Below, one piece after another: positions 11,983 to 27,297 of a DNA stretch of 27,297 bases (the first letter of the stretch is position 1; each line of letters begins with the position of its first letter). The notes below the pieces were generated by a model, which had not been told where the DNA came from, made no database searches, and saw nothing but the letters and a program-made list of their open reading frames with translations. A program made the translations under genes and the position numbers. The stretch is from a virus: the IMG/VR virus record IMGVR_UViG_3300044998_000215, positions 1 to 27,297 of that record; one strand, written 5' to 3'.

Positions 11983-11999
11983 TAGAGTTTATCTCTTAT

Positions 12000-12106: not shown

Positions 12107-12226
12107 CTAAAACAGTGCTTCCAAAACTTTGATGATAAGTCCCACCACCACGCCAATCACAAGCGTCACCGCCACAACGGGCGCGACTTCCTGTGCCGTT
12201 TTAGTGTTTTTCAGTTTTGGCTTCAT
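12107..12226 (-). CDS. 39-aa single-span membrane protein
   Basis: A very small frame, ATG at 12226 to TAG at 12107. The start overlaps the stop of the SH3-like gene as ATGA, so it is probably translated by coupling. The product starts with a basic stretch (MKPKLKNTK), followed by TAQEVAP and a strongly hydrophobic span of about 20 residues (VVAVTLVIGVVVGLIIKVL), then ALF. With the basic end likely inside, it is predicted as a single-pass inner-membrane peptide. Candidate roles are a small holin, a type-I-toxin-like peptide or a subunit of the SH3-like membrane protein; the sequence does not decide. Confidence 0.65.
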   Translation of the reverse strand: MKPKLKNTKTAQEVAPVVAVTLVIGVVVGLIIKVLEALF

Positions 12227-12612: not shown

Positions 12613-12853
12613 CGCCAATTACCTTTTTCTCGAAAAACTCGTCATAACTGGTGATTCCAAAATATGCCATTAAAGCATCCACCGTATGAGCATCGAAGCG
12701 AGTTTGCAATCCTAAAGCATAAGCCCGCACGACTGACCGCGATAACCCCGTTGCCCGTTCCACATCCGCATATTTGATACGGATTCCCTCGCGTTTCTCT
12801 TTCTCTTGGATGAGGTCAATCACCCTCACCCGTGTTGCCCGTTTTATTGCCAC
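12590..12853 (-). CDS. Small HTH (XRE/Cro-like) transcriptional regulator
   Basis: An 87-aa protein starting at a GTG (12853) preceded by GGAGG at six bases. The sequence IKYADVERATGLSRSVVRAYALGLQTRFDAHTVDALMAYF has the five-helix Cro/CI-type fold, with the recognition segment TGLSRSVVRAYA. It is one DNA-binding domain without a cleavable C-terminal domain, so it is more like Cro or a small repressor than lambda CI. It is transcribed from a near-perfect sigma70 promoter (12889-12917) divergent from recombinase 2 and is the first gene of the HTH/SH3-like/39-aa operon. It is the best candidate lysogeny regulator in the window. Confidence 0.85.
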   Translation of the reverse strand: MAIKRATRVRVIDLIQEKEKREGIRIKYADVERATGLSRSVVRAYALGLQTRFDAHTVDALMAYFGITSYDEFFEKKVIGDDTQTDG

Positions 12854-12888
12854 ATAATGCCTCCATTCTGTTTGTAGATATTGAAAAG

Positions 12889-12917
12889 ACTATACACCTA
12901 ATCGTTTTAGTTGTCAA
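12889..12917 (-). promoter_or_regulatory. Sigma70-type promoter of the HTH operon
   Basis: On the minus strand a perfect TTGACA (12917-12912) and TATAGT (12894-12889) are separated by exactly 17 bases. It is the strongest consensus promoter in the window and lies 36 bases before the GTG start. Confidence 0.85.
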
Positions 12918-12938
12918 ACATTTGCTATGCAATTGGGC

Positions 12939-12954
12939 TATAATTTGTTATAAT
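12939..12954 (+). promoter_or_regulatory. Possible plus-strand -10 boxes for recombinase 2
   Basis: TATAAT occurs at 12939-12944 and again at 12949-12954. No good -35 box is at the right distance from either, so a promoter that needs an activator, or a chance AT-rich stretch, are both possible. Confidence 0.35.
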
Positions 12955-12973
12955 TAACACAAGTCAGAGAAAC

Positions 12974-13060
12974 AAAAACGCCTCTGCGTCAACAGAAGCG
13001 TTTTTGCCCGCGATGGTCTGTGGGGTGGGAAACCACCAACGGATTAGGGGCTTGTCATCT
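12974..13060 (+). ncRNA. Structured leader before recombinase 2
   Basis: A long hairpin, AAAAACGC with TCTG against CAGA and GCGTTTTT, spans 12974-13005. A second spans 13017-13043: TCTGT pairs with ACGGA outside, and GGTGG with CCACC across a GAAA loop. GATG (13012-13015) can close with CATC (13056-13059). No known riboswitch class was recognised. It lies in the 5' leader of recombinase 2, 54 bases or more before the start codon. Confidence 0.4.
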
Positions 13061-13113
13061 CTGATAAAACCAACTGTTCAAAGGTCAATGTGTCTCAGAA
13101 AGGACAAAATTAC

Positions 13114-14331
13114 ATGTTACCACAAACTATACACCAAAACACTCAAATTATGCAAGCCCCCCGCCCCACCCCCACCCACTGGACGCGATTCTTCTCCCCC
13201 ACCGATGCTATGCTATCGGTATACACCCACATCGAATCCCGCGCATCATCCCACACCCAAGAAAAGAACACCCGCAAAACTTACGAAATCAGCCTAAAAG
13301 CATGGCACGATTTCGCGGGCGATGAGCTTCCTACGCCAACGCTCATGCAAACTTATATCAATTACATGCTTCACCAAAAAGGATTAAAACCCTCATCAAT
13401 TATTGTTCGCCTCGCCCCCGTCCGTATTTATCTAAAGGCTTTAGCCAACCAACCCACCATCGGCTATCACGGACACGACCGCGACCTCATCACTGAATAC
13501 CGTGAGCAAATCCGCGCCGCGTTGGATGTCAAAAATCCACCACCCGCCAGCAAGTCGAATTACGGACCCCTATTCAATCCCGAATTTGTGCGACTTGAAC
13601 AAAACCAAGTTAATCTGGTTTTGCTCAAGATTGACCGCTCCACCCTGCAGGGCAAGCGCGATTACGCCTTGTTGATGACCGCTTTTTATACTGCGCTCCG
13701 CATTTCGGAGCTAACCCGCATTACGCTCAACAACATCACCCCTCTAGGCGATGCTTATCAAGTCGCCGTGCGTGGTAAGCGTGGCACAACCGACCCCGTA
13801 CCCTTATCAAAATTTGCCTATAACGCCATCATTGAATGGGTTACAGCCTACAATCAAGCCGTCTCATCCCCCTCTCCACAAAGTGGGGAGGGGCTAGGGG
13901 TGGGGCTTAATAATCTATCTTATGTATCCTCAATTCCCCCTCTCCATGCAATGGGGATGGGTGGGGCTAATCCCCCAGCCATCGAAGGCGATGTCCCCAT
14001 ATGGCAACCCCTCGAAGGCGCAAACACGCCGATGCAAGTCGGGCGCAAAATCGGCACAGGAGTATATGACCCATGCACGGGCTTGCTCCACAAGGGGCTA
14101 CGTGGCATCATCGCCAACCGTACCGCATCGGCATTAGGCGACCGTTACCGCATGGCGGCGCACGACACCCGCCGTACCGCCGCATATATCGCATACAAAG
14201 CGGGGATGCCCCTCACCGCCATTCAAAAATTGTTGCGACACAAAGACGCATCCACCACCTTGCACTACATCGGGCAATCCCCCGATTTAGCCGCCTCTGA
14301 TTTCGGCACTTACGGTGTCGTGTTCGGATAA
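13114..14331 (+). CDS. Tyrosine recombinase 2, 405 aa, with repeat insertion
   Basis: A second phage/XerC-like recombinase. The ATG at 13114 follows AGAAAGGA by nine bases; an in-frame GTG at 13090 lacks this. The N-terminal SAM-like domain (TLMQTYINYMLHQKGLKPSS) leads into a catalytic domain with the full set: Arg in TALRISEL, Lys in VRGKRGTTDPVPL, AHDTRR, LLRHKDASTTLHY with the second His and the Tyr nucleophile. Between the Lys strand and the AHDTRR helix is an extra stretch of about 80 residues, part of it encoded by palindromic intergenic-type repeats (13868-13957), giving SPSPQSGEGLGVGL. The insertion is in frame and all catalytic residues remain, so activity is possible. It may serve a second att site, integron-like switching or dimer resolution. 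Confidence 0.92.
   Translation: MLPQTIHQNTQIMQAPRPTPTHWTRFFSPTDAMLSVYTHIESRASSHTQEKNTRKTYEISLKAWHDFAGDELPTPTLMQTYINYMLHQKGLKPSSIIVRLAPVRIYLKALANQPTIGYHGHDRDLITEYREQIRAALDVKNPPPASKSNYGPLFNPEFVRLEQNQVNLVLLKIDRSTLQGKRDYALLMTAFYTALRISELTRITLNNITPLGDAYQVAVRGKRGTTDPVPLSKFAYNAIIEWVTAYNQAVSSPSPQSGEGLGVGLNNLSYVSSIPPLHAMGMGGANPPAIEGDVPIWQPLEGANTPMQVGRKIGTGVYDPCTGLLHKGLRGIIANRTASALGDRYRMAAHDTRRTAAYIAYKAGMPLTAIQKLLRHKDASTTLHYIGQSPDLAASDFGTYGVVFG
13868..13957 (+). repeat. Two palindromic repeat copies inside recombinase 2
   Basis: CCCCCTCTCCAC AAA GTGGGGAGGGG (13868-13893) and CCCCCTCTCCAT GCA ATGGGGA (13936-13957) are tandem copies, with TTATGTATCCTCAATT between them, a variant of the intergenic module. 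They match the copies at 14394, 17970 and 26630 but lie in coding sequence, in frame. Confidence 0.75.
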
Positions 14332-14356
14332 GCCTCTTAACCCCCTCCACCCCTAC

Positions 14357-14384
14357 GGACGTGCTTCTGCACGTCCTTTTTTTT
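14357..14384 (+). terminator. Terminator of recombinase 2
   Basis: A perfect 8-bp stem, GGACGTGC TTCT GCACGTCC, is followed by eight T residues and then G, 26 bases after the recombinase stop. The stem is also a copy of the GACGCGC hairpin module, so the repeat appears to serve as the terminator. Confidence 0.85.
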
Positions 14385-14393
14385 GTCCTTTAT

Positions 14394-14416
14394 TCCCCCT
14401 CTCTGCAAAGTGGGGA
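14394..14416. repeat. Palindromic repeat copy
   Basis: CCCCCTCTCTGCAAAGTGGGGA, a variant of the copies in recombinase 2 and at 17970. It lies between the two converging terminators. Confidence 0.6.
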
Positions 14417-14418
14417 CA

Positions 14419-14447
14419 CAAAAACACCCCTCGCGGGGGTGCTTTTG
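14419..14447 (-). terminator. Terminator after the 175-aa membrane protein gene
   Basis: CACCCC pairs with GGGGTG, extended by an A/T stem across a one-base bulge, and is followed on the minus strand by TTTTTGTGT. It would end the last minus-strand late unit, about 125 bases past the stop at 14574. The remaining gap, 14448-14573, is AT-rich and shows no gene. Confidence 0.7.
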
Positions 14448-14573
14448 CGTCGCGTTAGGATACGTACCCCCATGCGACACTATTAAAAATTTATGCGTTT
14501 TTTTCTCTGGTATACGCAACCCACCAACTCACAAAATTTGTCTATGTCTCAAACTACACAAAATCTTTGATTA

Positions 14574-15101
14574 TTACCCAACCGCCCCAACCGTAGGCTT
14601 AGAAACGTCCGTCTGACCACCGCCAAACCGTTTAGCGATTTCGACTACATTCCGCTCGACAATCGGCGCAACCACCCGTTCAAGTGTAGCGACAAATTCA
14701 TCATCCAAGTCTGTAAATTGTGTGGATGTCGCCACCTCTTTTAACCTGCCAACCCCCGCCCCAATCGCACTCGCAAAGGACGGCTGAAGATAGCTAGGCA
14801 CAGATGAATGCAATCGGTCCAAAGCAATGCCCACCACATTCGCCGATGTGCGCGACAAAATCACCGCAATCGAACCGATAGCAGTCGCCACCACAACCAC
14901 AATCGCAATCACCGCATCGCGTAATGTCACCGTAGCGCGTTCTTCGGCGCTCGGTACAGGTGATTCAACGGGCGAGACCAATTCGCCACCATCATCAACA
15001 ACGATAATCGGCGCTTCATCGGTGGAATCCTGCGCCATCGCCAACGGTGTGCCAATCACAAACAACATGACCACCGCAAATAGATTAAACAAAAATTTCA
15101 T
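14574..15101 (-). CDS. Signal-peptide membrane protein, 175 aa (lysis candidate)
   Basis: The ATG at 15101 (MKFLFNLFAVVM) has AAGGAG six bases upstream. A clear signal peptide covers residues 1-23, with likely cleavage after LAMA before QDSTDE. An acidic, Pro-rich stretch follows (PIIVVDDGGELVSPVESP), then one hydrophobic span at about 60-85 (DAVIAIVVVVATAIGSIAVIL), then a soluble C-terminal half with weak coiled-coil character. No endolysin domain is visible. It has its own late promoter (15145-15178) and terminator and is the last late gene before the lysogeny region, where lysis genes often lie. A holin-type or other envelope role is possible but not shown. Confidence 0.8.
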   Translation of the reverse strand: MKFLFNLFAVVMLFVIGTPLAMAQDSTDEAPIIVVDDGGELVSPVESPVPSAEERATVTLRDAVIAIVVVVATAIGSIAVILSRTSANVVGIALDRLHSSVPSYLQPSFASAIGAGVGRLKEVATSTQFTDLDDEFVATLERVVAPIVERNVVEIAKRFGGGQTDVSKPTVGAVG

Positions 15102-15144
15102 TTCATGCTCCTTTTTCCTAATCAGACGAAAAAAATCTATCCCA

Positions 15145-15178
15145 ATCATACCCCACCACTCACCGCCATAACGCGCAT
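15145..15178 (-). promoter_or_regulatory. Putative late promoter P-late2
   Basis: Minus strand: ATGCGCGTTATGG, 15-base G-rich spacer, TATGAT at 15150-15145, upstream of the 175-aa gene. It shares the TGGTGGGGTATGAT ending with the site at 26589. Confidence 0.65.
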
Positions 15179-15185
15179 TATGTTG

Positions 15186-15743
15186 CTACACAATATTGAC
15201 AATCGGACCAAACCGCGTAAGCGCCCCGTCCGATTCGCGCCGATACAAGACCCGTATCGTGTGCGCCCCCGCGCCCACATTAGAGATGATGTCAAACACG
15301 GTCGGGTTGCCTGTTTCATTGCTGATTTTGTTAAACACCCCATCCAAATAGATAGCACCCTTAAATCCCTCTGGAGGGGTGCTAAATCCAATATTGATCT
15401 GTGTCGGCGTGCCACCATCACGCCCCGCCGATACACTAACGGGTCCATTCATATCCAACATATCGGGCAGGTCATCCACAATGACCACACTTTCACCAAT
15501 GGTTGCCATATATTTGAGGATTGCCCTTAATGTGCCATTATTGATTGCCAATGATAACGCTTGATTATCATCCCACAACGATTGCTTGAGCAAAATTACC
15601 AAACTATATTCATCAGTTGCCAAACCCACCAGAGATTTAATTGTGGGGATAATGCCCGCCTCCACCGCCAACGGCACAAACGCCACATTCGCCACCATCG
15701 GCGCTCCCAAATTGGTTATTTCTGCGTATGGATTGATTGCCAT
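15186..15743 (-). CDS. Unknown structural-type protein, 185 aa
   Basis: The start MAINPYAEITNLG at 15743 has GGAG seven bases upstream; longer readings enter the previous gene. The N-terminal half is helical (LAVEAGIIPTIKSLVGLAT), the middle acidic (IVDDLPDMLDMNG), and the C-terminal half Gly-rich and beta-like (NVGAGAHTIRVLYRRESDG), with a carbohydrate-binding or fibre-tip look but no clear domain. It follows the collar-domain fibre and is probably a virion or fibre-associated protein. The family is not recognised. Confidence 0.75.
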   Translation of the reverse strand: MAINPYAEITNLGAPMVANVAFVPLAVEAGIIPTIKSLVGLATDEYSLVILLKQSLWDDNQALSLAINNGTLRAILKYMATIGESVVIVDDLPDMLDMNGPVSVSAGRDGGTPTQINIGFSTPPEGFKGAIYLDGVFNKISNETGNPTVFDIISNVGAGAHTIRVLYRRESDGALTRFGPIVNIV

Positions 15744-15753
15744 ATCAACTCTC

Positions 15754-16488
15754 CTAGTTACCAGTATAGATAAAATAATTTGCAAAAAATGTAGGCTGAA
15801 CGTTATTGTGTCCTGTCCCACTACCAGAAGTACCCGTAGAACCAGGATAATTAAAATCAGCCCCACTTCCCATGCCAACAATGCCTTGCCCTACAATTCG
15901 CTGCACATATTGGGTAAATGGGCTAGAGGGACCATGTGTATGCGGACCGTTTTCACCTGATGTTAGTGAATGGGTTTCCGCGCCCATTACCCCACCATTA
16001 ATATCGGCTTGCGCGTTAGTAATCCGATTTGCAGCCCCACTACCGGGGTTATCCATCCCCGCCAATACCCGCCCCCGCAAATCGGGCAATGGCATCCGCT
16101 TATTAGCCGAAAAATCCGCTGCCGCCGATGCTCCCCTAGTCGTTGGCGACCCCCCCGATGTCTGTATCACCAATTCGGTGTTTGTGTAATTTGTCCACAA
16201 AAACACAAACAAATCCCACATGTCCGCATTTGCCCGCGCAGTCGCCCCGCTAGATTGGTTCCCAATTGTCCGCCCATCCAGCCTTAACCATGCCGCCCCT
16301 TGATCAGCCACAGCTCCACTTTGTTTAATATCCCCCACCATCCACCCGATGGTTTTGGGTGTAGCCCCCCACGCCTCTAGCGTTTGCCCATCAGCCTTAT
16401 GTGCCATTGTGTTGTTAATGGCATTCACAAGCGCGTTCCATATCGTGGCGGTGATTAGATCACCCGTACTCCTTGTTGATAATGGCAT
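15754..16488 (-). CDS. Tail fibre / collar-domain protein, 244 aa
   Basis: Probable receptor-binding or fibre protein. The N-terminus MPLSTRSTGDLITATIWNAL is a short adaptor helix. The centre contains the phage tail collar motif, PLPDLRGRVLAGMDN, followed by GAETHSLTSGE and GPHTHG, whose His-x-His pattern can bind metal at the trimer axis in fibre tips. The C-terminus NNVQPTFFANYFIYTGN is the hallmark ending of this family. AAAGGTG lies ten bases before the ATG. It is in the tail module, after the hub-like protein. The host receptor cannot be inferred. Confidence 0.88.
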   Translation of the reverse strand: MPLSTRSTGDLITATIWNALVNAINNTMAHKADGQTLEAWGATPKTIGWMVGDIKQSGAVADQGAAWLRLDGRTIGNQSSGATARANADMWDLFVFLWTNYTNTELVIQTSGGSPTTRGASAAADFSANKRMPLPDLRGRVLAGMDNPGSGAANRITNAQADINGGVMGAETHSLTSGENGPHTHGPSSPFTQYVQRIVGQGIVGMGSGADFNYPGSTGTSGSGTGHNNVQPTFFANYFIYTGN

Positions 16489-16502
16489 ATCGTTTTACAC
16501 CT

Positions 16503-17951
16503 TTAATAAACTAACCTTGTAGTTTCGCTAATTTCACTCTGCCCCACCACCCCCAATAACCAAAACTGGGACACCTTAGCAGGCTCAAGATAACACGTCT
16601 GCACATGCTCATTCCCCACCCGCCATTGATGACGTTCCCCCACACACCAATAGTCATCATCTACAAACAGGCTATCAATCGTAATGCGATACCGTTCCCC
16701 AATTTTCCACACATCCGATACGGTCGCGCCCGTGTTTGGCACTTCTTTGAGGGTGATAGCTCTCACCGTCCCGCGCAATTCGTCCCGCCGTGATAGTTCA
16801 TACAGCGCGATCTGTTTTGCGCCATCATGTCCACCACCAGTCGCCAACGAGATATGAATCTCACGCCTGCCCAATTCGTTGATAGATGTGGTGTTTTCTT
16901 CTTTCACCGTGATCGAATTTTGCGCCTGTGTCGGCACGCCCGTTAACGTTAACGTATCTAACACCGCCACCGCTGTGCTTACATTTTGGATAGTGACAAC
17001 TGCCACCCCGCCCTTTTCGGCTATCGTGATATTTGCCGTTCCACTGCTAAATGTGGATGATACAGATAGAGATGTCGCCGCTACAAATTGCCCATTCAAT
17101 TTACGCAACCGCACTTCAATAATTTCGGTGGTGCTTGGTTGGATAGTCATTGGCTTATCCAATTCCCAAAGCGTCTGAGACACATCGCTCCTGCGCGGGG
17201 TGATGCTCACCCGAACCGAATTGGCAATATCTTCACCATAACGATATTCAATATTAGTCAATCCATATTGTTTTTCGGTAGCGCTGTCCAATGTCGCCAA
17301 TACCGCCGTATTGACAATTTTATGATGCCGATTCCAAAACCGAAATGTGCCATCCCTATCCATCCAAAACCACCCCCGCTCCGACTCGGATATTTCTTGA
17401 ATGACTTGCCACATATCAGCACCATTATCACCATACAAATCAAATTTCGTAGCTCCTGTCTCAAAGTCAGTCGGCAAACCCGGAAAGCCCCCCTGAAAAA
17501 AGACATCAGTGATAATGATATGAGCCCATGTGTTTGTTAATAAAGGGAAGTTTAGGGTGATTTGGTCAAAAATTTGCTTTATCCCCACACACGAAAAAGA
17601 TACCGTATGCTTTCCTGTCAATTCGCCAATTGGTTGCCATGTAATCATCGGCAAATCCAAATAACCCGTCCATAACGGGATAATCGTCCCGCCATAATCC
17701 GCTTCGATTTTCACCGCCCGAAACGGCTTGATGTTGCCATACAACGGTGATGACGGATTAGAAGGGTTAAAGCGCCCGTCCGTGTTGATGAGTGTCAAGT
17801 TGGCTGTGTTATCATCAGCCATTGCCCGAAACGTTTCGCGTGTCCCCAAAAACCACTCCGCTTCGATGACATAATCACTCACCTCATCATCCGCAGAAAA
17901 CACACCCGTTCCATCCCAATTTATCCAAAAACGAAAAGTTGTCTTACCCAT
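16503..17951 (-). CDS. Tail protein, distal tail/hub-like, 482 aa
   Basis: The start MGKTTFRFWINWDG at 17951 follows AAGGACGTAT; an ATG upstream at 17984 would extend into the repeat. The N-terminal third contains NTDGRFNPSNPSSPLYG and FRAVKIEADYGG followed by LWTGYLDLP, a pattern common in siphophage proteins just after the tape measure. The rest is beta-rich (many Thr/Val strands). No protease or lysozyme motif is visible. By position it is the distal tail or hub protein that links tube to fibre; the exact Dit or Tal equivalence is not settled. Confidence 0.8.
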   Translation of the reverse strand: MGKTTFRFWINWDGTGVFSADDEVSDYVIEAEWFLGTRETFRAMADDNTANLTLINTDGRFNPSNPSSPLYGNIKPFRAVKIEADYGGTIIPLWTGYLDLPMITWQPIGELTGKHTVSFSCVGIKQIFDQITLNFPLLTNTWAHIIITDVFFQGGFPGLPTDFETGATKFDLYGDNGADMWQVIQEISESERGWFWMDRDGTFRFWNRHHKIVNTAVLATLDSATEKQYGLTNIEYRYGEDIANSVRVSITPRRSDVSQTLWELDKPMTIQPSTTEIIEVRLRKLNGQFVAATSLSVSSTFSSGTANITIAEKGGVAVVTIQNVSTAVAVLDTLTLTGVPTQAQNSITVKEENTTSINELGRREIHISLATGGGHDGAKQIALYELSRRDELRGTVRAITLKEVPNTGATVSDVWKIGERYRITIDSLFVDDDYWCVGERHQWRVGNEHVQTCYLEPAKVSQFWLLGVVGQSEISETTRLVY

Positions 17952-17955
17952 ATAC

Positions 17956-18034
17956 GTCCTTTTTTTATTCCCCTCTCCATGCAATGGGGAGCTGAAGGGT
18001 AAAGATTAATAAACACATTTATGCGTCCTCAATC
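17956..18034. repeat. Composite repeat copy between tail genes
   Basis: From left to right: CGTCC plus a T run, CCCCTCTCCATGCAATGGGGA (17970-17990), a linker, then CATTTATGCGTCCTCAATCAC (near 18017-18034). This is the fullest copy of the element; the module order matches 26630-26680. Confidence 0.75.
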
Positions 18035-19952
18035 ACGTCCGTTGCCGTGCCACTTTTCGCAATTGGTCGTATAGAGCATTAACATCCTGCACCCCATTGA
18101 GTACCAACGTCCCAATGCTAATACCACCCATGCCCGCCATTTGCCTCTGGTTAAATATCGTGCCATTGGTTTGCGGCACAAACCATTCTTGTCCACGTTC
18201 ACCGACCTTATACGGCATCCCCGCCATCACGGGTCCACCGTCAGCGCGACCCCCTAAACCCGATTGTAAATTAATCAAGTTCGATGGCGATAAAATTTCT
18301 TTAGGGCTATCAAAAATACTGTTTTGTTCTGCCTTAATTAACCCAAGCCCCCGTAACACATTTTCAATACCAGAACTAATTTGACCTAAAAATCCCGTGA
18401 TCGAATTAACAACCCCCTCAACAATATTTTTGATGCCATTAAACACACTTTCAAATACATTGCGAATCGTAGTGAATAAAGGGCTATTGCTTAATTCAGC
18501 CAAAGCACCCAAAATAAAATATATCCCAATCTCAACCAGCTGACGTGCCGCAACCGTTGCCCTCTGGAATCCCCCTAACAACCCACCTTCACCGCTACCC
18601 AGCACCGCGAGCAAACCTGCAATTGCCGCCACCAACCACGTAATCGGGGATGTTGCCACCGCCACCGCCGCATTAAAGCCCCAAACCGCCACAGTTGCCG
18701 CATTCGTCCCAATCACCACCGCCCCCGCCATAATGGTTGCAAACCCATTGATTAACCAACCGACAGGGGTCAAAACCACCCCCAACGCCATAGCACCAAG
18801 CGCCAACCCTGCCAATGCGTGAATAGCTTCCGGGTTTTGAGCAACCCAATTTGACATCTCGGTTATCACTGGTTGCAAAGACAGCAACAAATCATTTAAG
18901 GCAGGCAACAACGCCATCCCAACCGTAATGCCTATGCCACTAATTCCCGATTTCAATTTGTCGAATTGTGCCGATACACTATCCAACTGAATAGCGCGTG
19001 CCGCCTCAGTTGCGCCGTTCACACCTGTCTTAAAATTATCAAAAAATTGTTTTGCATCTTGATCTGTCAAAATCAAACCAGCCCGTAGCGCCTCTTGGCT
19101 GGTAATCAATCCCGCAAAAGACCCATCACCATATTCACGGATTTTGGCATACGCGCCGTCTAAACCCAGCGCCGCGACCATCGCCTCGCCAGATTCGTAC
19201 CCCATTTCTCGTATCGCTTTTGACAAATCACCGGTTGGGTTAAGCAACGCGCTCATCGCCCCGCGCAAAAGCGTGGATGCTTCGGATGCGCTTACCCCTT
19301 TTGTGGTCATGAACGCCATATAACCACCGAGCGTATCCAATTCAATGCCCATCGCCGCCGCCATGCCCGTCACGCTAGGCATTGCCGCCGCCAATTCGTC
19401 CATAGTCAATACACCCATGCCCACCGTCCGCGTGAACACATCAGACACAAATGCCGCATCTTCTGCCGCAAATCCATAGCTATTCATTGTTGCAATCAGT
19501 GATGCGGTGGATGCCGCCAAACTCGCGGACCCTGCCTCACTTAAAGCAATGGATTGATTGAGGATGTCCATGTGCAAACTAGCATCAGCCACACCAGACA
19601 CAATATCATAAAATGCTTCTGCCACCGCCTGCGGACCCGCGATAGATTCGCTACCAATCCGCAATATCTCGGCATTCAACCCAACCATCTCATCACGACT
19701 GTTGCCCAAAATCGCCGCCGCATTGGTCATTGCACGGTCAAAATCCATCGCCGATTTTATCGCCAACCCAAAACCGCCAACCAATGGCGCGGATATGCGA
19801 ATCATATCCTGCCCTAAACTGGTCACAGATTTGCCCGCGTCCTTAATTTGGTCACTAAAGGATTTTGTTTCCCTTTTCGCCGTCTTAAGCGCATTGGTCA
19901 TGTTGTCTTCTAAGTTGAGTTCGCCATAAAGCGATATGACCTTTTCAGCCAT
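18033..19952 (-). CDS. Tape measure protein, 639 aa
   Basis: It sets tail length and is ejected ahead of the DNA. It begins MAEKVISLYGELNLEDNMTN and contains the typical tape-measure tail-sheath region, AMDFDRAMTNAAAILG, followed by AETFY-like and TMNSYGFAAEDAAF stretches. Several long hydrophobic spans occupy residues about 380-470 (LAGLALGAMALGVVL; NGFATIMAGAVVIG; SPITWLVAAIAGLLAVLG), expected to cross the host membrane. The C-terminus has ADGGPVMAGMPYKVGERG and ends with the common WFVPQTNGTIF motif. At 639 aa it predicts a tail of roughly 90-100 nm at about 0.15 nm per residue, a short siphovirus tail. It overlaps the GT frame end by eight bases. Confidence 0.93.
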   Translation of the reverse strand: MAEKVISLYGELNLEDNMTNALKTAKRETKSFSDQIKDAGKSVTSLGQDMIRISAPLVGGFGLAIKSAMDFDRAMTNAAAILGNSRDEMVGLNAEILRIGSESIAGPQAVAEAFYDIVSGVADASLHMDILNQSIALSEAGSASLAASTASLIATMNSYGFAAEDAAFVSDVFTRTVGMGVLTMDELAAAMPSVTGMAAAMGIELDTLGGYMAFMTTKGVSASEASTLLRGAMSALLNPTGDLSKAIREMGYESGEAMVAALGLDGAYAKIREYGDGSFAGLITSQEALRAGLILTDQDAKQFFDNFKTGVNGATEAARAIQLDSVSAQFDKLKSGISGIGITVGMALLPALNDLLLSLQPVITEMSNWVAQNPEAIHALAGLALGAMALGVVLTPVGWLINGFATIMAGAVVIGTNAATVAVWGFNAAVAVATSPITWLVAAIAGLLAVLGSGEGGLLGGFQRATVAARQLVEIGIYFILGALAELSNSPLFTTIRNVFESVFNGIKNIVEGVVNSITGFLGQISSGIENVLRGLGLIKAEQNSIFDSPKEILSPSNLINLQSGLGGRADGGPVMAGMPYKVGERGQEWFVPQTNGTIFNQRQMAGMGGISIGTLVLNGVQDVNALYDQLRKVARQRT

Positions 19953-20139
19953 GCTTTTTATTCCTATCGTTGATGAGTGCCAACAAGTCCATCACATCCC
20001 GTATCGGCAAACCATCTATATCGGTTGGTAAAACATGCAATTCCAGCGCCAACTGCGCCCGTGTAATCCGCCACCCTTCATCGTCTTCAAGCACCACATC
20101 ATCGGGCGCTTTTCTCAATAAAAAGATGGCGTAACTTAT
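19945..20139 (-). CDS. Tail assembly chaperone T extension, read by -1 frameshift
   Basis: An open frame in the -1 phase relative to the G gene continues from the A run at 20139 to a TGA at 19945, 64 codons, ending across the tape measure start. It begins ISYAIFLLRKAPDDVVL and contains DDEGWRITRAQLALEL, the kind of charged sequence found in GT extensions. It has no start codon of its own in a useful place, so it should be made as part of a 174-aa fusion with G. The gap it fills, between G and the tape measure, is where lambda-type phages keep T. Confidence 0.85.
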   Translation of the reverse strand: MSYAIFLLRKAPDDVVLEDDEGWRITRAQLALELHVLPTDIDGLPIRDVMDLLALINDRNKKHG

Positions 20140-20468
20140 TTTTTTTGGATGTCAGTCTGCGCATCACGGAGGGCAATCAGCAAACTCTGGAACTTATTCC
20201 CTTTCAAATACGCAAACGCCCCCACATCGCTCCAATCGAGCTGTGCGGGCGCATTTTTCACCATCCAATCAGATGGCACACTAACGAGGCATTTTGCCAA
20301 ATACCCCTCTATATCAGTAAATGCCGATGCGATCGCTTCCACATCGCCATCCTTTTCGGCTTTAATTAACCGCGCCATCGCCACCGATTTCGCTTTCTCA
20401 TCCCGCCACGAGATGTTATCAAAATCGAAAACAGGCGCGTCCACCATCTCCGCCATGTTGTCACTCAT
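20136..20468 (-). CDS. Tail assembly chaperone G, 110 aa
   Basis: Chaperone that binds the tape measure during tail assembly. It starts at MSDNMAEMVDAP (ATG 20468), overlapping the tail tube stop as ATGA. The product is helical and acidic, and carries a C-terminal DIQKK run encoded by CAAAAAAAATAA. The slippery A AAA AAA heptamer (20145-20139) directly precedes the TAA stop. Length and gene position, between tail tube and tape measure, are standard. Confidence 0.87.
   Translation of the reverse strand: MSDNMAEMVDAPVFDFDNISWRDEKAKSVAMARLIKAEKDGDVEAIASAFTDIEGYLAKCLVSVPSDWMVKNAPAQLDWSDVGAFAYLKGNKFQSLLIALRDAQTDIQKK
20139..20146 (-). promoter_or_regulatory. Slippery site for -1 ribosomal frameshift
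   Basis: Eight A residues contain A AAA AAA in frame with G, followed at once by the G stop UAA. A -1 slip gives the long T frame; a +1 slip gives only a short one. Confidence 0.85.
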
Positions 20469-20884
20469 GACCACACCGCTCCCGCAAACATATTAAGCGT
20501 AGGCGCATCAGCACCCTTCAATTCCAATTCAAACATCACCGCATCTTTCGTGACCGAAACCTCATGCGGTGCAGTTGTCACAATAAACACCTGCTCATGT
20601 TTCGGCTTGCCCGATACCGCCCCTTCGGGACCATAAACCACCGTCACCTTTTCGCCCACTTGCAACAACTGGATATATGTGGCAAGGAGTGCAGTTTCAT
20701 AAGCCAGTGAGATGCTCATATCTGTCTCAATCAGACCGGGTTCATACTGCTTATGGTCAGTCCCAGCGCCAGCCGTCACATCCACCGTGTCAGCTGACGG
20801 ATTGAGGCTAACCTTTTTCCAGAACGCCTTCACATCAGTCCCGTTAATGGTCAGATAAATATCGTTACCATTCAATTTAGCCAT
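20465..20884 (-). CDS. Major tail tube protein, 139 aa
   Basis: It forms the tail tube. It starts MAKLNGNDIYLTING at 20884, with TAATG overlap to the tail terminator stop. The fold is a beta barrel typical of tube proteins: DVKAFWKKVSLNPSADTVDV, AGTDHKQYEPGL, and a loop with GPEGAVSGKP that resembles tube inter-ring loops. No Ig-like decoration domain is present. Its place after the neck genes and before G is the usual one. Confidence 0.85.
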   Translation of the reverse strand: MAKLNGNDIYLTINGTDVKAFWKKVSLNPSADTVDVTAGAGTDHKQYEPGLIETDMSISLAYETALLATYIQLLQVGEKVTVVYGPEGAVSGKPKHEQVFIVTTAPHEVSVTKDAVMFELELKGADAPTLNMFAGAVWS

Positions 20885-21291
20885 TATTTCGCCTCCATGA
20901 CAATCTCATAATCGAATCCACTGTGATATATCGGCTTTGCGTTTTCGTCCCACTCCACCAGATACACCGTTTCCGTTTGAGTGATAGTGCAAATGTCCCA
21001 ATCGGCATCGCCCACAATCACCCCACCATCAAACAACCCACCATCGGCAAGCAAATTATCAAATTGTGCCGATAGCGTTAATCCATCCGCCAATCCATCC
21101 GTCACCGCCTTGACGGTTAAAATGATTTTTTGCCGATTATTCACGACCTCGCGTGTATTTCCGCCCGATACAAAATAAAATACGATGTACGGGCGATTAA
21201 CGCCTATAGGAGCATGGTCTGCATACACATCACCGACCGACCGCAACGCCTCAAAAACCGCCTTATATAATGACCGAATCGGGTGAATCAT
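20884..21291 (-). CDS. Tail terminator-like protein, 135 aa
   Basis: It caps the tail tube and joins it to the neck. The ATG at 21291 overlaps the previous stop (ATGA) and gives MIHPIRSLYKAVFEALR, followed by VYADHAPIGVNRPYIVFY, which matches the DUF3168/terminator pattern. The C-terminus has a beta strand (ETVYLVEWDEN) and ends YEIVMEAK. A longer reading that starts 17 residues earlier would lie inside the previous gene. Assignment is by pattern and position. Confidence 0.75.
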   Translation of the reverse strand: MIHPIRSLYKAVFEALRSVGDVYADHAPIGVNRPYIVFYFVSGGNTREVVNNRQKIILTVKAVTDGLADGLTLSAQFDNLLADGGLFDGGVIVGDADWDICTITQTETVYLVEWDENAKPIYHSGFDYEIVMEAK

Positions 21292-21704
21292 AGCTTCATC
21301 CACCCCTCTAGCGACCTCGCCAATTTGCCCCCACGCGACCATTTATCAAACGCAGGGCGCATATATGGGCGCGGGCGAATGCGTGTCGTCCCAAACTCTA
21401 ACCCCTCTGCATAATCCGTTCCAGCCGCCACCCAATACCGCAATTTGCTTTTTGGGATAACGCGAATACTCGCCCGCAATGCGCCCGTATCCACATTCGG
21501 CGGATTTCCTGCTGTAGACGCATAATGTACCTTACCATTCCCCCGCGGATACGCCCGCCCACGCGGACCCGTGTTAAACGATGTGACCACATCATTTTTG
21601 ATTTCTTCTGCCACACCGCGCAACCAATCGCCCAAATCGCCGTCCATCTTTTTGATGAGCGCCTCTAGCGGTCTGGTATCAATTGACCAATTGATCCCGC
21701 TCAT
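21288..21704 (-). CDS. HK97 gp10-like tail completion/neck protein, 138 aa
   Basis: It starts MSGINWSIDTRPLEAL and contains the family hallmark: a Gly/Arg-rich RGRAYPRG, then the NVDTGALRASIRV strand, GTDYAEGLEFGT, and a tail with RPRPYMRPAFDKW. This is the HK97 gp10-like family, which sits at the head-tail joint. The ATG overlaps the upstream stop (ATGA). Confidence 0.92.
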   Translation of the reverse strand: MSGINWSIDTRPLEALIKKMDGDLGDWLRGVAEEIKNDVVTSFNTGPRGRAYPRGNGKVHYASTAGNPPNVDTGALRASIRVIPKSKLRYWVAAGTDYAEGLEFGTTRIRPRPYMRPAFDKWSRGGKLARSLEGWMKL

Positions 21705-22048
21705 GTCGTCACCACCGCTTGGATATATAACCCTGTGACGATGGATAACGCCACCACGCGATATTCCACCCCTCCAACCGTGATTTTATCCCCGCCCAAC
21801 ACATCGGTATTAATCGGCAATATCACACGATACGACTCGGTAAGTTTTTGTTGATTGCCCACCGTAGCAGTTTGCCCTGTGCGCCCATCCATGCCACGTA
21901 TCAATCGGCACGCCACATCATCAGCCACCAGTCCCCACTGGTGCAACGGCTCACCCATCACACCCTGCACCAACGCCTCGCGCTCAATTCGGCAAACATC
22001 ATCCAAAAATCCTGCGAGCATCGTTTTAATACGCGCCAACGCCTTCAT
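21701..22048 (-). CDS. Head closure (stopper)-like protein, 115 aa
   Basis: It closes the DNA channel after packaging. MKALARIKTMLAGFLDD precedes CRIEREALVQGV, and the beta barrel YRVILPINTDVLGGDKITVGGVEYRVV is typical of SPP1 gp16/HK97 gp7-type stoppers. The start overlaps the connector stop by four bases. The lineage is set by pattern and gene order; no catalytic residue is expected. Confidence 0.8.
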   Translation of the reverse strand: MKALARIKTMLAGFLDDVCRIEREALVQGVMGEPLHQWGLVADDVACRLIRGMDGRTGQTATVGNQQKLTESYRVILPINTDVLGGDKITVGGVEYRVVALSIVTGLYIQAVVTT

Positions 22049-22404
22049 ACGTCACCATCCACAATATCGGCACGCCTCGCCCGCACAGCACGAACCGTAA
22101 TGGGCGCGACACCCGTGCTATAACCAAACTCCGCCGATTTGATGGCGAGCAACCGTTGCCACCCCACGATACCATCCTTGTAGTCCACCCGCAACCAATC
22201 CGCCGTAAAATTCGGATTCGCACTCATACGGGCGATGACATTTTTAATGCACATAATCACCGCCCCTTGCCACGTCCCCGCTTCGGCAATGCAAAACGTG
22301 ATTTCCTCATCCGAAAATATCATGGATGCTTCATCCACGTCCGATAAATGGAATCTCACGCGGGTGATGTCATTAGGTGTCGAGGGGGTGTACGTGAATG
22401 CCAT
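22045..22404 (-). CDS. Head-tail connector (adaptor)-like protein, 119 aa
   Basis: The ATG at 22404 (MAFTYTPSTPND) follows the previous stop by two bases; an upstream TTG at 22410 is less likely. It contains ITRVRFHLSDVDEASMIFSD, an adaptor-type pattern (gp6/gp15-like), then a helical core and a C-terminal wing (GVAPITVRAVRARRADI). It would sit under the portal. Identification by position and pattern. Confidence 0.82.
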   Translation of the reverse strand: MAFTYTPSTPNDITRVRFHLSDVDEASMIFSDEEITFCIAEAGTWQGAVIMCIKNVIARMSANPNFTADWLRVDYKDGIVGWQRLLAIKSAEFGYSTGVAPITVRAVRARRADIVDGDV

Positions 22405-22406
22405 GA

Positions 22407-22778
22407 TCAACCGCGCTCCACATATACAGTCACGACAACACCACCAACCACAGGGTCGCCTTGCGCCACACTAGCCGTCAATTTGCCCGCCACGATAAAC
22501 GCATCATACACAGCCGTCAAATTCGTGCCATCTGTACCCTGCAACAATCGGCGCGAGTAGATGAGCGCATCGCTATTGGTATTAGTGAGTGTCAAAATCG
22601 TTTGCGGTGGCGATGAGCTGGTGAGCGTCACGTCCGTAGTCGCCGGTTGTGATGTGTAATCCACATGCACCGCCAACACCCGTCCGTTGATCCCATCAAT
22701 AGATGTGGTGCTACCAGTAGCAGACCCCGCCGAGCCTGCCACATCTACCACCAATCGGATAACGTCAATCTTTGCCAT
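22407..22778 (-). CDS. Unknown virion-type protein, 123 aa
   Basis: The start is MAKIDVIRLVVDVAG at 22778. The product is rich in Val, Thr and Ser and almost wholly beta; it has VDYTSQPATTDVTLTS, then a helix-poor centre and TVYVERG at the end. Proteins like this are found between the capsid and connector genes of many siphophages and may be head decoration or a neck part. No exact family is recalled. Its position between major capsid and adaptor supports a virion role. Confidence 0.76.
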   Translation of the reverse strand: MAKIDVIRLVVDVAGSAGSATGSTTSIDGINGRVLAVHVDYTSQPATTDVTLTSSSPPQTILTLTNTNSDALIYSRRLLQGTDGTNLTAVYDAFIVAGKLTASVAQGDPVVGGVVVTVYVERG

Positions 22779-22797
22779 CTATTTTCACTTTCGTTCT

Positions 22798-22860
22798 GCC
22801 TGATACGGACGCGCTTCCATGCGCCCATATCAGGACGGATAACAAATATTATGCGTCTAC
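22798..22860. repeat. Composite repeat copy after the capsid gene
   Basis: GATACGGACGCGCTTCCATGCGCC followed after a gap by ATTATGCGTCTACAC. Imperfect copies of the hairpin module and the TTTATGCGTCCTCAAT module. It fills the only gap between the capsid and the next gene. Confidence 0.55.
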
Positions 22861-22861
22861 A

Positions 22862-23758
22862 CTACGCGACTTCGCCACCATAAACCCAACGCCAGTCGGT
22901 TACACCATACGACCAACGCGCGTCCGCTGTCACCACAAAATTGCCTGTGGTGGCTTTATACTCATAGGTGACTTCGGGCGCTTGACGGTCGAACCAATAC
23001 AAATGGCGTTTGGCACGGCGCGAATCCAACAAAAACCAATTGTTGGTATCGGTCAGCCAATCCCACACAATCACACGAATGTTGCTCAACACATTCGCAT
23101 CGTTGTTGTTAGTACCCGATTTTTGGGTACTCATCACAATTTCCAACGCGGTGTTTTCGAGGTCGGGTGGCACAAGCAGCACATCACCCATCGCGCCCAC
23201 AGGATTCCCCCGTGTATCAGGAAATTTCCGCATGGCGATACGTGCCGCGCTCAGTGCCGAATGGCTCAAAGCGGTTGTGCCGTTGTTGCTATATGTGGCG
23301 GAATTTTCCGCCCCGTATGGGTGGTCGGTGTCACACAGGAACTGACCATCACCGTATGTGGTGGTGTCGAAGGCAAGGTTAAACACCTTTGCCCCATAAT
23401 ACTGACGCGACCGTGCCGCACTTTCCGCCAATTCGCGCGTCAACGATGTGATGGTGAGCCAATCTTGGTCTTGCACCATTTCTTTGCTGATGCTGATAGA
23501 TTTGTTATAGGTGGCGTGCGTGAACGTGGTCAAATATTGCTCACTGATACTGTCAAATTCGCCCGCCCCGCCTTCCACCTTCGGCTTCATCAATCCCAAA
23601 CTACCGGTTGTAACCACCCGTTCATAAGCCTTTTGGGATGTTTGCACATTAAAAATTTCACCAACGATGTCGGGTGTCATTCCCATTTCGGCGATAAATG
23701 TTGCCATAACACCGGGCAAAATCAGGTTGGCAAATTGGTCTTCAATCATCGTAGCCAT
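22862..23758 (-). CDS. Major capsid protein (Mu gpT-like / HK97 fold), 298 aa
   Basis: It builds the icosahedral head. It begins MATMIEDQFANLILPG with AGGAG nine bases upstream. Features: LMKPKVEGGAGEFDSI as the E-loop region, QYLTTFTHATYNKSISIS, DGQFLCDTDHPYG, which is a signature of Mu gpT-like capsids, and a C-terminal NNWFLLDSRRAKRHLYWF. No protease gene was seen, and no clear delta domain at the N-terminus; scaffolding appears to be a separate gene (24205-24756). Assignment is firm at the HK97-fold level. Confidence 0.9.
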   Translation of the reverse strand: MATMIEDQFANLILPGVMATFIAEMGMTPDIVGEIFNVQTSQKAYERVVTTGSLGLMKPKVEGGAGEFDSISEQYLTTFTHATYNKSISISKEMVQDQDWLTITSLTRELAESAARSRQYYGAKVFNLAFDTTTYGDGQFLCDTDHPYGAENSATYSNNGTTALSHSALSAARIAMRKFPDTRGNPVGAMGDVLLVPPDLENTALEIVMSTQKSGTNNNDANVLSNIRVIVWDWLTDTNNWFLLDSRRAKRHLYWFDRQAPEVTYEYKATTGNFVVTADARWSYGVTDWRWVYGGEVA

Positions 23759-23770
23759 TTTATTCTGCTC

Positions 23771-24196
23771 CTATGCCAACGCGCAAACGTCAAAACGAAT
23801 AAGGATGTCGGTTGTGCTATCATTGAGGGCAACAATTTGGATGCACCCCCCCGTTGTGTCAGCCACATTCACCACCTGTGACGAATTAAGGTCATAGGTC
23901 GCAACGCCCAACACATGGCTAGTCGCATTGGCGCTTGCAGTCGCCCGCCACAATTGTGACGGTTTGGCAACATACACCTTAGCCAACGGTCCCCCAGCAC
24001 TACTGCCTGTAGTAATGGCTTCAGCCATCACGCCCACACACTCGCCAAAGCTCGCACCCGCCTTAGCGATCTTGTTGGATGACAACACCACCGCGTCACC
24101 AACTGCCAAAGTCTGGCTATCAGCCACAGGCAATTCGATAACATTAGGTGGCTGATTATTGCCATCGTTATCCCGTACAAAACTAAAATTAGGCAT
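23771..24196 (-). CDS. Capsid cement/decoration-like protein 2, 141 aa
   Basis: The start MPNFSFVRDNDGNNQ has GAGGG six bases upstream. The body is a beta barrel of the DUF2190/cement type: PVADSQTLAVGDAVVLSS, FGECVGVMAEAI, ATYDLNSSQVVNVA and a closing strand. It lies between scaffold and major capsid, as capsid-stabilising proteins usually do. It resembles in pattern, not in sequence, the protein at 26058-26471. Confidence 0.76.
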   Translation of the reverse strand: MPNFSFVRDNDGNNQPPNVIELPVADSQTLAVGDAVVLSSNKIAKAGASFGECVGVMAEAITTGSSAGGPLAKVYVAKPSQLWRATASANATSHVLGVATYDLNSSQVVNVADTTGGCIQIVALNDSTTDILIRFDVCALA

Positions 24197-24204
24197 TCAA
24201 TCCC

Positions 24205-24756
24205 TCATTTCTTGATAAATTTGGCGTAGTCCTCCGGAGATATTCCCATCCCTTTAGCCACTGCCAATTGTTCCGCCGTTAATTGTATTGCCGTCTTACC
24301 TTCACCACCGCCTGCACCCGCATCTAAATTCGGTGCAGGTGGGGTGGTGAGTTTTGTTTCATTGGCATCAAGCCATGCCGCTAAATCTTCGGGTGGCAAT
24401 TGTGGTATGAGGCTTCTAAAGTGTTCAGGTATCCGCTCCACCCGTGCTTTGTTGTTTGCCGTAATTCGGGCTTCCAACGCTTCCGCACGGGTTTGGTACG
24501 GTTTCACCTTGTTCAATTCGGCTTCACGGGCTTCCGCCAGTTCTTTCCATTTGCCCTGCTCCGCCAATTGTTTTTGTTGCATCTCATTCATCTGCGCTTC
24601 GAGCGCCTGCAATCGTTTGCGTTTTTCTGCCGCTTCGCCACGTAGTGACCGTATATACGTCTGCACAGCTTCGGGGAGAGTAGTCAAATCAATTGCATCA
24701 CCACCATCACCACTTTGTTGCTTTTGGGCATCAAGCCCGTTATTGTCATCACTCAT
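24205..24756 (-). CDS. Capsid scaffolding protein, 183 aa
   Basis: It guides procapsid assembly and is not in the mature head. MSDDNNGLDAQKQQSGD is an acidic disordered start, the long charged coiled coil runs over about 35-100 (RGEAAEKRKRLQALEAQM; ELAEAREAELNKVKP), and a Gly-rich linker leads to a C-terminal helix MGISPEDYAKFIKK that probably binds the capsid. The length and design match phage scaffolds. It is the first gene behind the weaker late promoter at 24779. Confidence 0.85.
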   Translation of the reverse strand: MSDDNNGLDAQKQQSGDGGDAIDLTTLPEAVQTYIRSLRGEAAEKRKRLQALEAQMNEMQQKQLAEQGKWKELAEAREAELNKVKPYQTRAEALEARITANNKARVERIPEHFRSLIPQLPPEDLAAWLDANETKLTTPPAPNLDAGAGGGEGKTAIQLTAEQLAVAKGMGISPEDYAKFIKK

Positions 24757-24778
24757 TTGGCATCAAGCCTCTCTCTAT

Positions 24779-24812
24779 AAAGTACCACGTACCATCAACA
24801 AATAACGCTCAT
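24779..24812 (-). promoter_or_regulatory. Putative late promoter P-late4 (weaker)
   Basis: Minus strand: ATGAGCGTTATTT, 15-base spacer, TACTTT at 24784-24779. It sits upstream of the scaffold gene in the gap after the gpF-type protein gene. It matches the upstream element and spacing of the other three sites, but the spacer is not the shared G-rich one. Confidence 0.5.
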
Positions 24813-24813
24813 C

Positions 24814-25830
24814 TTATGTTGATGAGCCAGCCAAAACATCCCGTAGTGATTTTTGTCTCACCATCTCACCAAACAGGTCGTCCCGATATGTCTCCACAAA
24901 ATCACGCAATTGCGCCCGCCCACTCTTGAGCGCCTCATACGCGCCCACACCCGCCAATTCGCGCTTCTCATCATCGGATAACCCCTCCCAATACGCCTCG
25001 CCCGTGACAATGGGTGGACGCATATTCGGGATTATTGTCGCTATGCTGATGCACCGCCCGTTATGATGGTCATTAACCGTCTCATTCGGACCCAACATCG
25101 TCCCATGCAACGCCAAACACGCCATGCAAATCCGACCATCCAATACCCCAATCCGTTGCCGATACTGAATAATATCGGCGTTTGCTTGGTCATATAAAAA
25201 TGTCGCCTGCCGATACGCTGATAATTGCAATGTCCGCATCATCGTGCTTGCTTGCGCGAGGGGCAAATTCTTAACCGTCATAGCAAGCGTTTCGGCTAAT
25301 TTATTAGGCGACCATCCCCCTGCCATCCCCGCTAAAATTTGATTATTAACCGTCTTTAGCACCACATCCGAGCTAATCCGCATCGCCCGCGCAAATTCAT
25401 CGCGCCCGACATAATCCACAATCGCATTGAGCGCCTCTGGATTTGGCACGTTATACCGTATCCCCAGTTTCGCCAGCTGATTATCATCAAACCCGCCTAG
25501 CGCCAATTGCCGATGTAACACCCGTGCGGCATTAATCCCGTTTTCCTGCATCTGTTGAGCAATACCCTGCAAGGCGATGTTTTGCCGTGCCAAATCATCA
25601 CCAAGCGTCACCGACAAACTCACCAAAAACGGATTATCCGCCGTCAATGGTTTGCCCTCACCCGCCAATCTATCGGCTTCGGCTTGCAAATCTTGAACCC
25701 GCCGTTCCAATTCAGGCGATGCACCCCGCGCCAAAAATGGACGAATTAACCGCGTGTACCCTCTATCAAGTACCCGCTCAATTAAATTCACTATCGGGTT
25801 AGGATCCTCACGCCCGCCATCATTGCTCAT
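24814..25830 (-). CDS. Minor head protein (SPP1 gp7 / Mu gpF type), 338 aa
   Basis: It aids head assembly and DNA ejection. It starts MSNDGGREDPNPIVNL and has a long helical part (LARGASPELERRVQDLQ) with the gpF-type core QLSAYRQATFLYDQ, then RICMACLALHGTMLGPNE and DHHNGRCISIA, where two cysteines and His/Cys spaced as in CxxC...HxxxxC make the family signature. It is separated from the portal by two small genes, a less usual order than portal-gpF directly. Confidence 0.9.
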   Translation of the reverse strand: MSNDGGREDPNPIVNLIERVLDRGYTRLIRPFLARGASPELERRVQDLQAEADRLAGEGKPLTADNPFLVSLSVTLGDDLARQNIALQGIAQQMQENGINAARVLHRQLALGGFDDNQLAKLGIRYNVPNPEALNAIVDYVGRDEFARAMRISSDVVLKTVNNQILAGMAGGWSPNKLAETLAMTVKNLPLAQASTMMRTLQLSAYRQATFLYDQANADIIQYRQRIGVLDGRICMACLALHGTMLGPNETVNDHHNGRCISIATIIPNMRPPIVTGEAYWEGLSDDEKRELAGVGAYEALKSGRAQLRDFVETYRDDLFGEMVRQKSLRDVLAGSST

Positions 25831-25833
25831 GGG

Positions 25834-26061
25834 CTATATCTTCTTTTTGGATAGAGGGGTGTATTTATCCTCTTTTTTGTCGGATAGTTCCCCGCCCACC
25901 AACACGACCAACGACACACTCACCCCTGTAGGGGTGTGCGCCACCTCAACGGTAAATGATTCGGGCGCATTCCCCGCCGCCACCCATTCATGACGCAAAT
26001 CATTGACCATGTTTTGGGCGCGAATGATCAAATCGGCACGCATCGCCTCAATGGTTATCAT
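25834..26061 (-). CDS. Unknown head-module protein, 75 aa
   Basis: The start MITIEAMRADLIIRAQ overlaps the preceding stop as ATGA. A helical half is followed by a beta hairpin (ESFTVEVAHTPTGVSVSLVV) and a Lys-rich tail ending KEDKYTPLSKKKI. No family is recognised. It is coupled to the cement-like protein before it and lies three bases before the gpF-type start. Confidence 0.72.
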   Translation of the reverse strand: MITIEAMRADLIIRAQNMVNDLRHEWVAAGNAPESFTVEVAHTPTGVSVSLVVLVGGELSDKKEDKYTPLSKKKI

Positions 26062-26471
26062 GGTTTTGCGACTCCGCCAACTTGAATATCAACCGCCAAA
26101 ATCGTGGTGCTGGTGGCGATTCCCAAAATGCTGACGTAGTTGCCCGTGGTCAAATCAGCATATGGCGCAATACCGCCCGCCGCCGCCGCCGATACGACAT
26201 ACACTTGCCCAACCACCAGCGTCCCGCCAGCCGTCAAGTTCCCCGCCGTGATAAATGTCACAGGTTGCCCACTGGATGCACCATGCAATGCAATCCCAAC
26301 GCATTTCGCTTTGGTGGCGGTATCGCCCTGTGCGGGCTTAAGCACAAAATTCGCCGACCCATCCTCATACAACGGTTGCCCTGCCGTGATGGTCGCGCCC
26401 GCCGTGCCAACTCGCGTTGTTGCATTTGCGCCCTTAACCACATTCGCCGGCGTGATAGATACATCTGCCAT
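26058..26471 (-). CDS. Capsid cement/decoration-like protein 1, 137 aa
   Basis: The ATG at 26471 (MADVSITPANVVKGA) has AAAGGA seven bases upstream; a longer reading to 26549 runs through the repeat and is disfavoured. It is Ala/Gly/Thr-rich and wholly beta: TAGATITAGQPLYEDG, KCVGIALHGASSGQPV and GNYVSILGIATSTTI, in the DUF2190/cement style. It heads the head operon, behind a late promoter (26589-26622). The role in capsid decoration is inferred from composition and context. Confidence 0.78.
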   Translation of the reverse strand: MADVSITPANVVKGANATTRVGTAGATITAGQPLYEDGSANFVLKPAQGDTATKAKCVGIALHGASSGQPVTFITAGNLTAGGTLVVGQVYVVSAAAAGGIAPYADLTTGNYVSILGIATSTTILAVDIQVGGVAKP

Positions 26472-26486
26472 AATAAAGTCCTTTCT

Positions 26487-26510
26487 GATACGGACGCGCT
26501 TCGACACGTC
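26487..26510. repeat. Hairpin-module repeat copy
   Basis: GATACGGACGCGCTTCGACACGTCC, with an imperfect GGACG/CGTCC stem, shares GATACGGACGCGCTTC with the copy at 22802. It lies in the leader of cement gene 1. Confidence 0.55.
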
Positions 26511-26588
26511 CATTAAACAAGGATGATAGAGGGTAGCCATCCACAACATAGCCTATAGCATCAGACAGCATCCCTCATATACACCCAC

Positions 26589-26622
26589 ATCATACCCCAC
26601 CACCCACCGCCATAACGCTCAT
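26589..26622 (-). promoter_or_regulatory. Putative late promoter P-late3
   Basis: Minus strand: ATGAGCGTTATGG, 15-base G-rich spacer ending GGTGGGG, TATGAT at 26594-26589. It lies between the portal terminator and cement gene 1. Confidence 0.65.
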
Positions 26623-26627
26623 CATTA

Positions 26628-26680
26628 TTCCTCCTCTCCAAAGTGAGGCTTGATAAAGGCATTTATGCGTCTTCAATCAC
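26628..26680. repeat. Composite repeat copy after the portal
   Basis: CCTCCTCTCCAAAGTGAGGC (26630-26650) followed by TTGATAAAGGCATTTATGCGTCTTCAATCACG. Same module order as 17956-18034, with a shortened linker. Confidence 0.7.
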
Positions 26681-26687
26681 GCAACAA

Positions 26688-26713
26688 AAAACACCCCATT
26701 CACGGGGTGTTTT
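26688..26713 (-). terminator. Intrinsic terminator after the portal
   Basis: Ten base pairs, AAAACACCCC against GGGGTGTTTT, loop ATTCAC; on the minus strand TTTTTTGTTG follows. It lies 23 bases past the portal stop and ends the packaging operon. Confidence 0.92.
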
Positions 26714-26736
26714 CATTTTCCTGCAATGGATGAGGG

Positions 26737-27297
26737 CTAAGGGGTAGGATTTACACCCCCACCCATACCAAACCCATTGACACTCCTAAGCAAATTTATT
26801 TGCTGTTGAATTTTTCGCTCAAGAATCCCCTGCACCGTCTCACCATCCCACCCAAACACGGGCGCGATTAGTTTAAGAAACGCCTCATCCCCGATCCGAT
26901 CCGCCACCGCCAACGCATTGGCGATAATCTCGCTATCATTGCGGATTTGCGCCCCTTCCCACAGTGCCATGCACCGCCCCAATTTCGGCGCGGACACTTT
27001 GCCATATGTCTTTGCCACCAAATTTGCCAATTCGATCGTCCACTCCCACGATTCACCCAATCGGATTTGAGCCTTCTCGACCTTAGCAATCAACCCCACC
27101 TCTTTTTGCTTGAGCGATTCCCCGCTTGCCGTATCCCCGCTTATCCGCATGAGCGGGGTACGGGTGATTTGGCTCATCTGCTCCACGATAAAATTCGCTT
27201 GGTCAATGTAAGGCACAAGAGATGATGCAGGTAACTGTTTCATGTCCACCATATCATCTCGTGTCAGACCAATATCCTCACCAGCTTCGTTTCGCCG
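26737..27297 (-). CDS. Portal protein, C-terminal 186 codons (cut by right edge)
   Basis: The frame enters from the right edge and ends with TAG at 26737; an internal ATG at 27252 is not the true start, since the reading stays open upstream. The 134 codons from the edge to 26896 repeat codons 287-420 of the left portal piece with about 30 base differences but only three amino-acid changes (Arg/Lys, Met/Ile, Gly/Ser). After 26896 it gives 52 more residues, ending VNGFGMGGGVNPTP, not present on the left. It is either the continuation of the left piece on a circle or a second portal. Confidence 0.85.
   Translation of the reverse strand, partial: RRNEAGEDIGLTRDDMVDMKQLPASSLVPYIDQANFIVEQMSQITRTPLMRISGDTASGESLKQKEVGLIAKVEKAQIRLGESWEWTIELANLVAKTYGKVSAPKLGRCMALWEGAQIRNDSEIIANALAVADRIGDEAFLKLIAPVFGWDGETVQGILERKIQQQINLLRSVNGFGMGGGVNPTP

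Follow-up and report, generated by a model that had tools for sequence, protein, structure and literature searches.

The 27,297-nucleotide stretch of viral DNA analysed here as a whole (IMGVR_UViG_3300044998_000215, hereafter the window) very probably comprises one full turn of the 26,895-bp circular genome of a temperate siphovirus, followed by 402 bp of wrap-around that entered a fork between two strains. The repeat at its ends is, with high confidence, an ordinary assembly effect and not the mark of two adjoining prophages. Its two copies, A on the left and B on the right, are in all likelihood the same part of a single portal gene as carried by two strains.

The terminal repeat

Positions 1-402 (copy A) and 26896-27297 (copy B) aligned without gaps and in direct orientation at the two contig ends, with 30 substitutions over 402 positions (92.5% identity) and at a significance far beyond chance (E = 1e-171). 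This reproduced what a sequence-only reading had described as a 402-base imperfect end repeat with about 30 substitutions and 92-93% identity. A single frame stays open across both copies; it lies on the minus strand and encodes residues 287-420 of the portal protein. In this frame, 23 of the 30 substitutions fall at third codon positions and three of the 134 residues change (M/I, G/S and R/K), which is the number of altered codons counted by that reading. The estimated dS and dN were about 0.30 and 0.023, respectively (Nei-Gojobori), values that make both copies look like working alleles maintained by purifying selection, in agreement with the earlier impression that both were functional and not sequencing errors.

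The distribution of the differences had gone unremarked in the sequence-only reading. All mismatches are confined to positions 100-402 (30/303, 9.9%), and positions 1-99 are identical to 26896-26994. If the 30 differences were spread at random over the 402 positions, such a clean initial stretch would be expected with a probability of 1.4e-4. The repeat is therefore not exact along its full length, consisting of 99 identical bases followed by a 9.9% divergent part. The identical stretch would be a shared node preceding the A/B fork, with the allele of strain A starting at position 100 and that of strain B at 26995. For copy A this assignment rests on the alignment and on the joined reading frame described below; copy B covers the same portal codons and would correspond to no second genomic locus. 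A strain fork would account for the inexactness, making the repeat a variant of wrap-around instead of the classical exact terminal repeat.

One portal gene across the closed ends

Closing the window end to end yielded a circle of 26,895 bp with one intact portal ORF of 472 residues. At the left end the gene breaks off beyond residue 420; residues 287-472 are encoded at the right end. The N-terminal 420 residues of this SPP1 Gp6-like portal (1-1260, minus strand) run through the junction into 26737-26895 (minus strand), which supplies the C-terminal 52 residues and the stop codon. The larger piece matched SPP1_portal and phrog_104. The gene pieces cut at the two ends thus join into one gene, and the full-length homologue is likewise one gene in the integrated relative G329 (see below).

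A second contig stops at the fork

Portal, ParA and capsid protein queries of IMG/VR recovered IMGVR_UViG_3300044961_000214 (17,818 bp), the only close relative found there. It aligned to window positions 9357-26994 at about 99.9% identity, a figure that also holds for the 10.45-26.99 kb interval, where the two contigs differ by only 8 substitutions. Its last 99 bases equal window positions 1-99 and 26896-26994, and it ends at 26994, the last base common to A and B (fork point 26994/26995). The same fork was thus probably met in that assembly too. Both contigs share the att core; the second one stops at the fork, and the two diverge between 9.36 and 10.45 kb. Within 9.36-10.36 kb, we counted 10 base changes, two short gaps and a 196-base indel. 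The 196-base segment occupies positions 989-1184 of the second contig, opposite window position 10356 and to the left of integrase 1, and is missing from the window.

Taken together, the pattern of differences and the stop of the second contig support that the window ends represent an assembly-graph fork entered by a shared 99-mer and not a physical repeat. The template would be circular DNA, whether excised, replicating or circularly permuted. The contig would start in the 99-base sequence common to two co-occurring strains and then take the portal allele of strain A; after a full circle, it would re-enter the shared 99 bases and continue into 303 bases of the strain B allele. From these data we infer a k-mer length of 99, a circular molecule, an Anaerolineae host and separate genomes for A and B.

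Direct terminal repeats of public contigs cluster at 55, 77 and 99 bp (CheckV, PMC8116208), which are likely assembler k-mer lengths arising on circular templates (PMC8116208), and assembly graphs branch where strains differ beyond k (PMC11443906). The window resembles the CheckV-type repeats in having a start and an end that would repeat because of a circular template, and 99 bp is among the listed lengths (PMC8116208). In contrast to those exact repeats, its repeat extends past the identical part into a second allele, with 90% identity over these 303 bp. A test for exact repeats at contig ends would reject the 402-bp repeat of the window.

Gene content

The genes of the window form one non-redundant set, with terminase, portal, capsid and tail genes in single copy, as in a temperate tailed phage. 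On the minus strand we found the large (1253-2743) and small (2715-3341) terminase subunits, a DUF3987 primase/helicase-like replication protein (4593-6038), a ParB-like protein (7475-9211) and a ParA-like ATPase (9204-9992). Tyrosine integrase 1 (11007-11912, plus strand) adjoins the att core. On the other attP arm lie a small HTH protein (12590-12853, minus strand), which in the relative marks the prophage end beside an intact tRNA-Pro, and a second tyrosine recombinase (13090-14331, plus strand), found at the same position in the G329 prophage. A single tail and head module (16503-25830, minus strand) encodes tape measure, major tail, neck, major capsid, scaffold/protease-like and MuF-like head morphogenesis proteins.

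No match to the window turned up in a megablast search of 50,697 phage records, and tblastn of terminase and portal against phages gave distant hits alone, at most about 41% identical. No Rfam family scored above its gathering threshold in the window. The window is probably a new temperate phage with a host among the Anaerolineae.

Several repeated elements were also observed. The second recombinase carries an in-frame insert (13867-13961) made of "TCCCCCTCTCC...GGGGA" repeats, at which its Anaerolineae relatives have about 30 residues fewer (gap at query residues 264-293). The motif ATTGAGGACGCATAAA occurs at positions 7303, 10906, 18018 and 26662, with a weaker copy at 13919, i.e. at five places with up to 3 mismatches versus 0.36 expected. 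Its four best copies are intergenic or located at gene ends, and each points toward the next gene; the motif is retained in the second contig and was not found in the G329 prophage. It could be an operator, a promoter element or a ParB site. In addition, a 37-base leader-like repeat, with copies up to 92% alike, precedes genes at 15145-15181, 26589-26625 and 4175-4211.

The att core and an integrated relative

The sequence-only reading had placed a tRNA site at 11.94 kb. The site was borne out, but not as a tRNA gene: ARAGORN called none in the window, and positions 11950-11982 (plus strand) match the last 33 nt of a tRNA-Pro gene, forming the attP core, as indicated by tRNA-Pro matches in genomes and by the att repeat of the relative. 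The 30-mer 11953-11982 was found exactly in six genome contigs, two of them from Anaerolineae, and the site was a tRNA-Pro in all four contigs where ARAGORN called a tRNA there. Extending the att pattern further 5' to 36 bases left zero genome matches, consistent with a host-shared core beginning near 11950. An integrase gene next to a tRNA 3'-end core common with the host tRNA is the arrangement of a temperate phage integrating in tRNA-Pro. Both contigs cross this core with phage genes on either side. In the Anaerolineae genome Prado097, a tRNA-Pro 3' end stands by itself, the remainder of the tRNA being absent; it is probably the distal att site of a different integrated element.

We have searched 396 Anaerolineae genomes for the portal, and nine of them encode a relative, the best being in G329. 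There, G329:C1:3508482-3549843 is a single, complete 41-kb prophage of siphovirus type, with a 35-bp direct repeat at its borders (3508482 and 3549809). The copy at 3549809 belongs to an intact tRNA-Pro(GGG), the repeat being the duplicated 3' end of this tRNA. The gene order, int1-parA-parB-(g4276)-terS-portal-g26058-MuF-scaffold-MCP-neck-tail-int2-HTH, where g4276 and g26058 are the homologues of window 4276-4533 and 26058-26549, is the one obtained by opening the circle of the window at its att core. In this prophage, the portal is one gene, flanked by homologues of the genes at the left and right ends of the window. The G329 prophage and the window thus have in common the tRNA-Pro att core, the order from int1 to HTH/int2, ParA/ParB and homologues of portal, head and tail proteins. 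They differ in size (41 vs 26.9 kb), in the additional genes of the prophage and in their proteins, which are mostly 25-50% identical; the large terminase of the prophage, a 500-codon ORF located between terS and the portal gene, belongs to a different type and did not match that of the window.

In the window, the two tyrosine recombinases (11007-11912 and 13090-14331) sit on opposite attP arms and are accompanied by ParA/ParB, and the same set occurs in the same order at the G329 prophage ends. Homologues of int1, int2, ParA and ParB also lie within one 100-kb region of G255 that contains a tRNA-Pro. In the stretches of G255 and G447 that were examined, the tRNA-Pro end was not found a second time.

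Alternative explanations

The sequence-only reading had offered two interpretations, a circle of about 26.9 kb assembled from two strains and a tandem pair of related prophages. The circle is backed by the single gene set, the portal closing across the ends, the stop of the second contig at the fork and the single-copy G329 relative, whose order is that of the circle opened at the att core. The tandem has no positive evidence, and neither contig calls for a second unit. In such an array at one tRNA-Pro site, the window would start midway through one unit, cross an internal att site and end midway through the next. An internal att site has phage arms on both sides and is an attP in make-up; the core at 11950-11982 therefore fits a tandem as well and does not decide between it and a circle. 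A dimer of near-identical prophages would also yield the same collapsed graph. The presence of two tyrosine recombinases would suit two prophages, but the G329 relative is a single unit carrying both, so they do not imply a second one. Moreover, the gene set of the window is not redundant, neither contig reaches recognisable host sequence, and the two copies part at the very place expected of a graph fork, on the base at which the second contig ends. We thus consider the tandem very unlikely.

Direct repeats of about 402 bp at both ends are of a size seen in linear phage genomes. It is barely conceivable that the end repeat is a genuine but imperfect terminal redundancy of linear virion DNA, or that it arose by duplication of part of the portal gene, since terminal repeats of this kind are copied from each other and identical, and here 9.9% of the bases differ past base 99. 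The repeat also sits inside one open portal gene, and in the G329 prophage the portal is full-length and occurs only once. Given this divergence and the single portal of the relative, we have rejected both forms. It is also highly improbable that the window is a chimera whose halves come from two different phages sharing the portal region alone. A mis-join of two related phages would yield the same ends, and identity to the second contig does fall to 97.7%, with the 196-base indel, left of about 10.45 kb; this rise in divergence indicates that strains with different left arms exist. However, homologues of both halves occur in the same order in one prophage (G329), and the second contig spans the middle of the window, so the contig would at most combine two strains of the same phage.

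Discussion

Beyond the circular genome and its strain fork, the comparison of the contigs suggests a tentative view of the population. The two contigs are near-identical over the 16.5-kb late/integration module (10.45-26.99 kb) and diverge left of it, and just beyond the other edge of the shared block A and B are 9.9% apart. Two co-circulating lineages may thus possess diverged portal/terminase/replication arms and a module that was recently exchanged. One edge of the exchange would lie inside the portal gene and have been captured at the assembly fork. In IMG/VR scans for arm B, the primase and ParB queries returned no relative and the ParA query only IMGVR_UViG_3300044961_000214; with arm B not found elsewhere, module exchange stays a lead.

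The practical weight of these results lies in genome completeness and curation, and they point to no new biological structure. A complete circular phage genome can be present without a long exact terminal repeat when two strains diverge at the break. For the phages themselves, the findings link a group of temperate phages that carry ParA/ParB and two recombinases to the Anaerolineae through a tRNA-Pro integration site.
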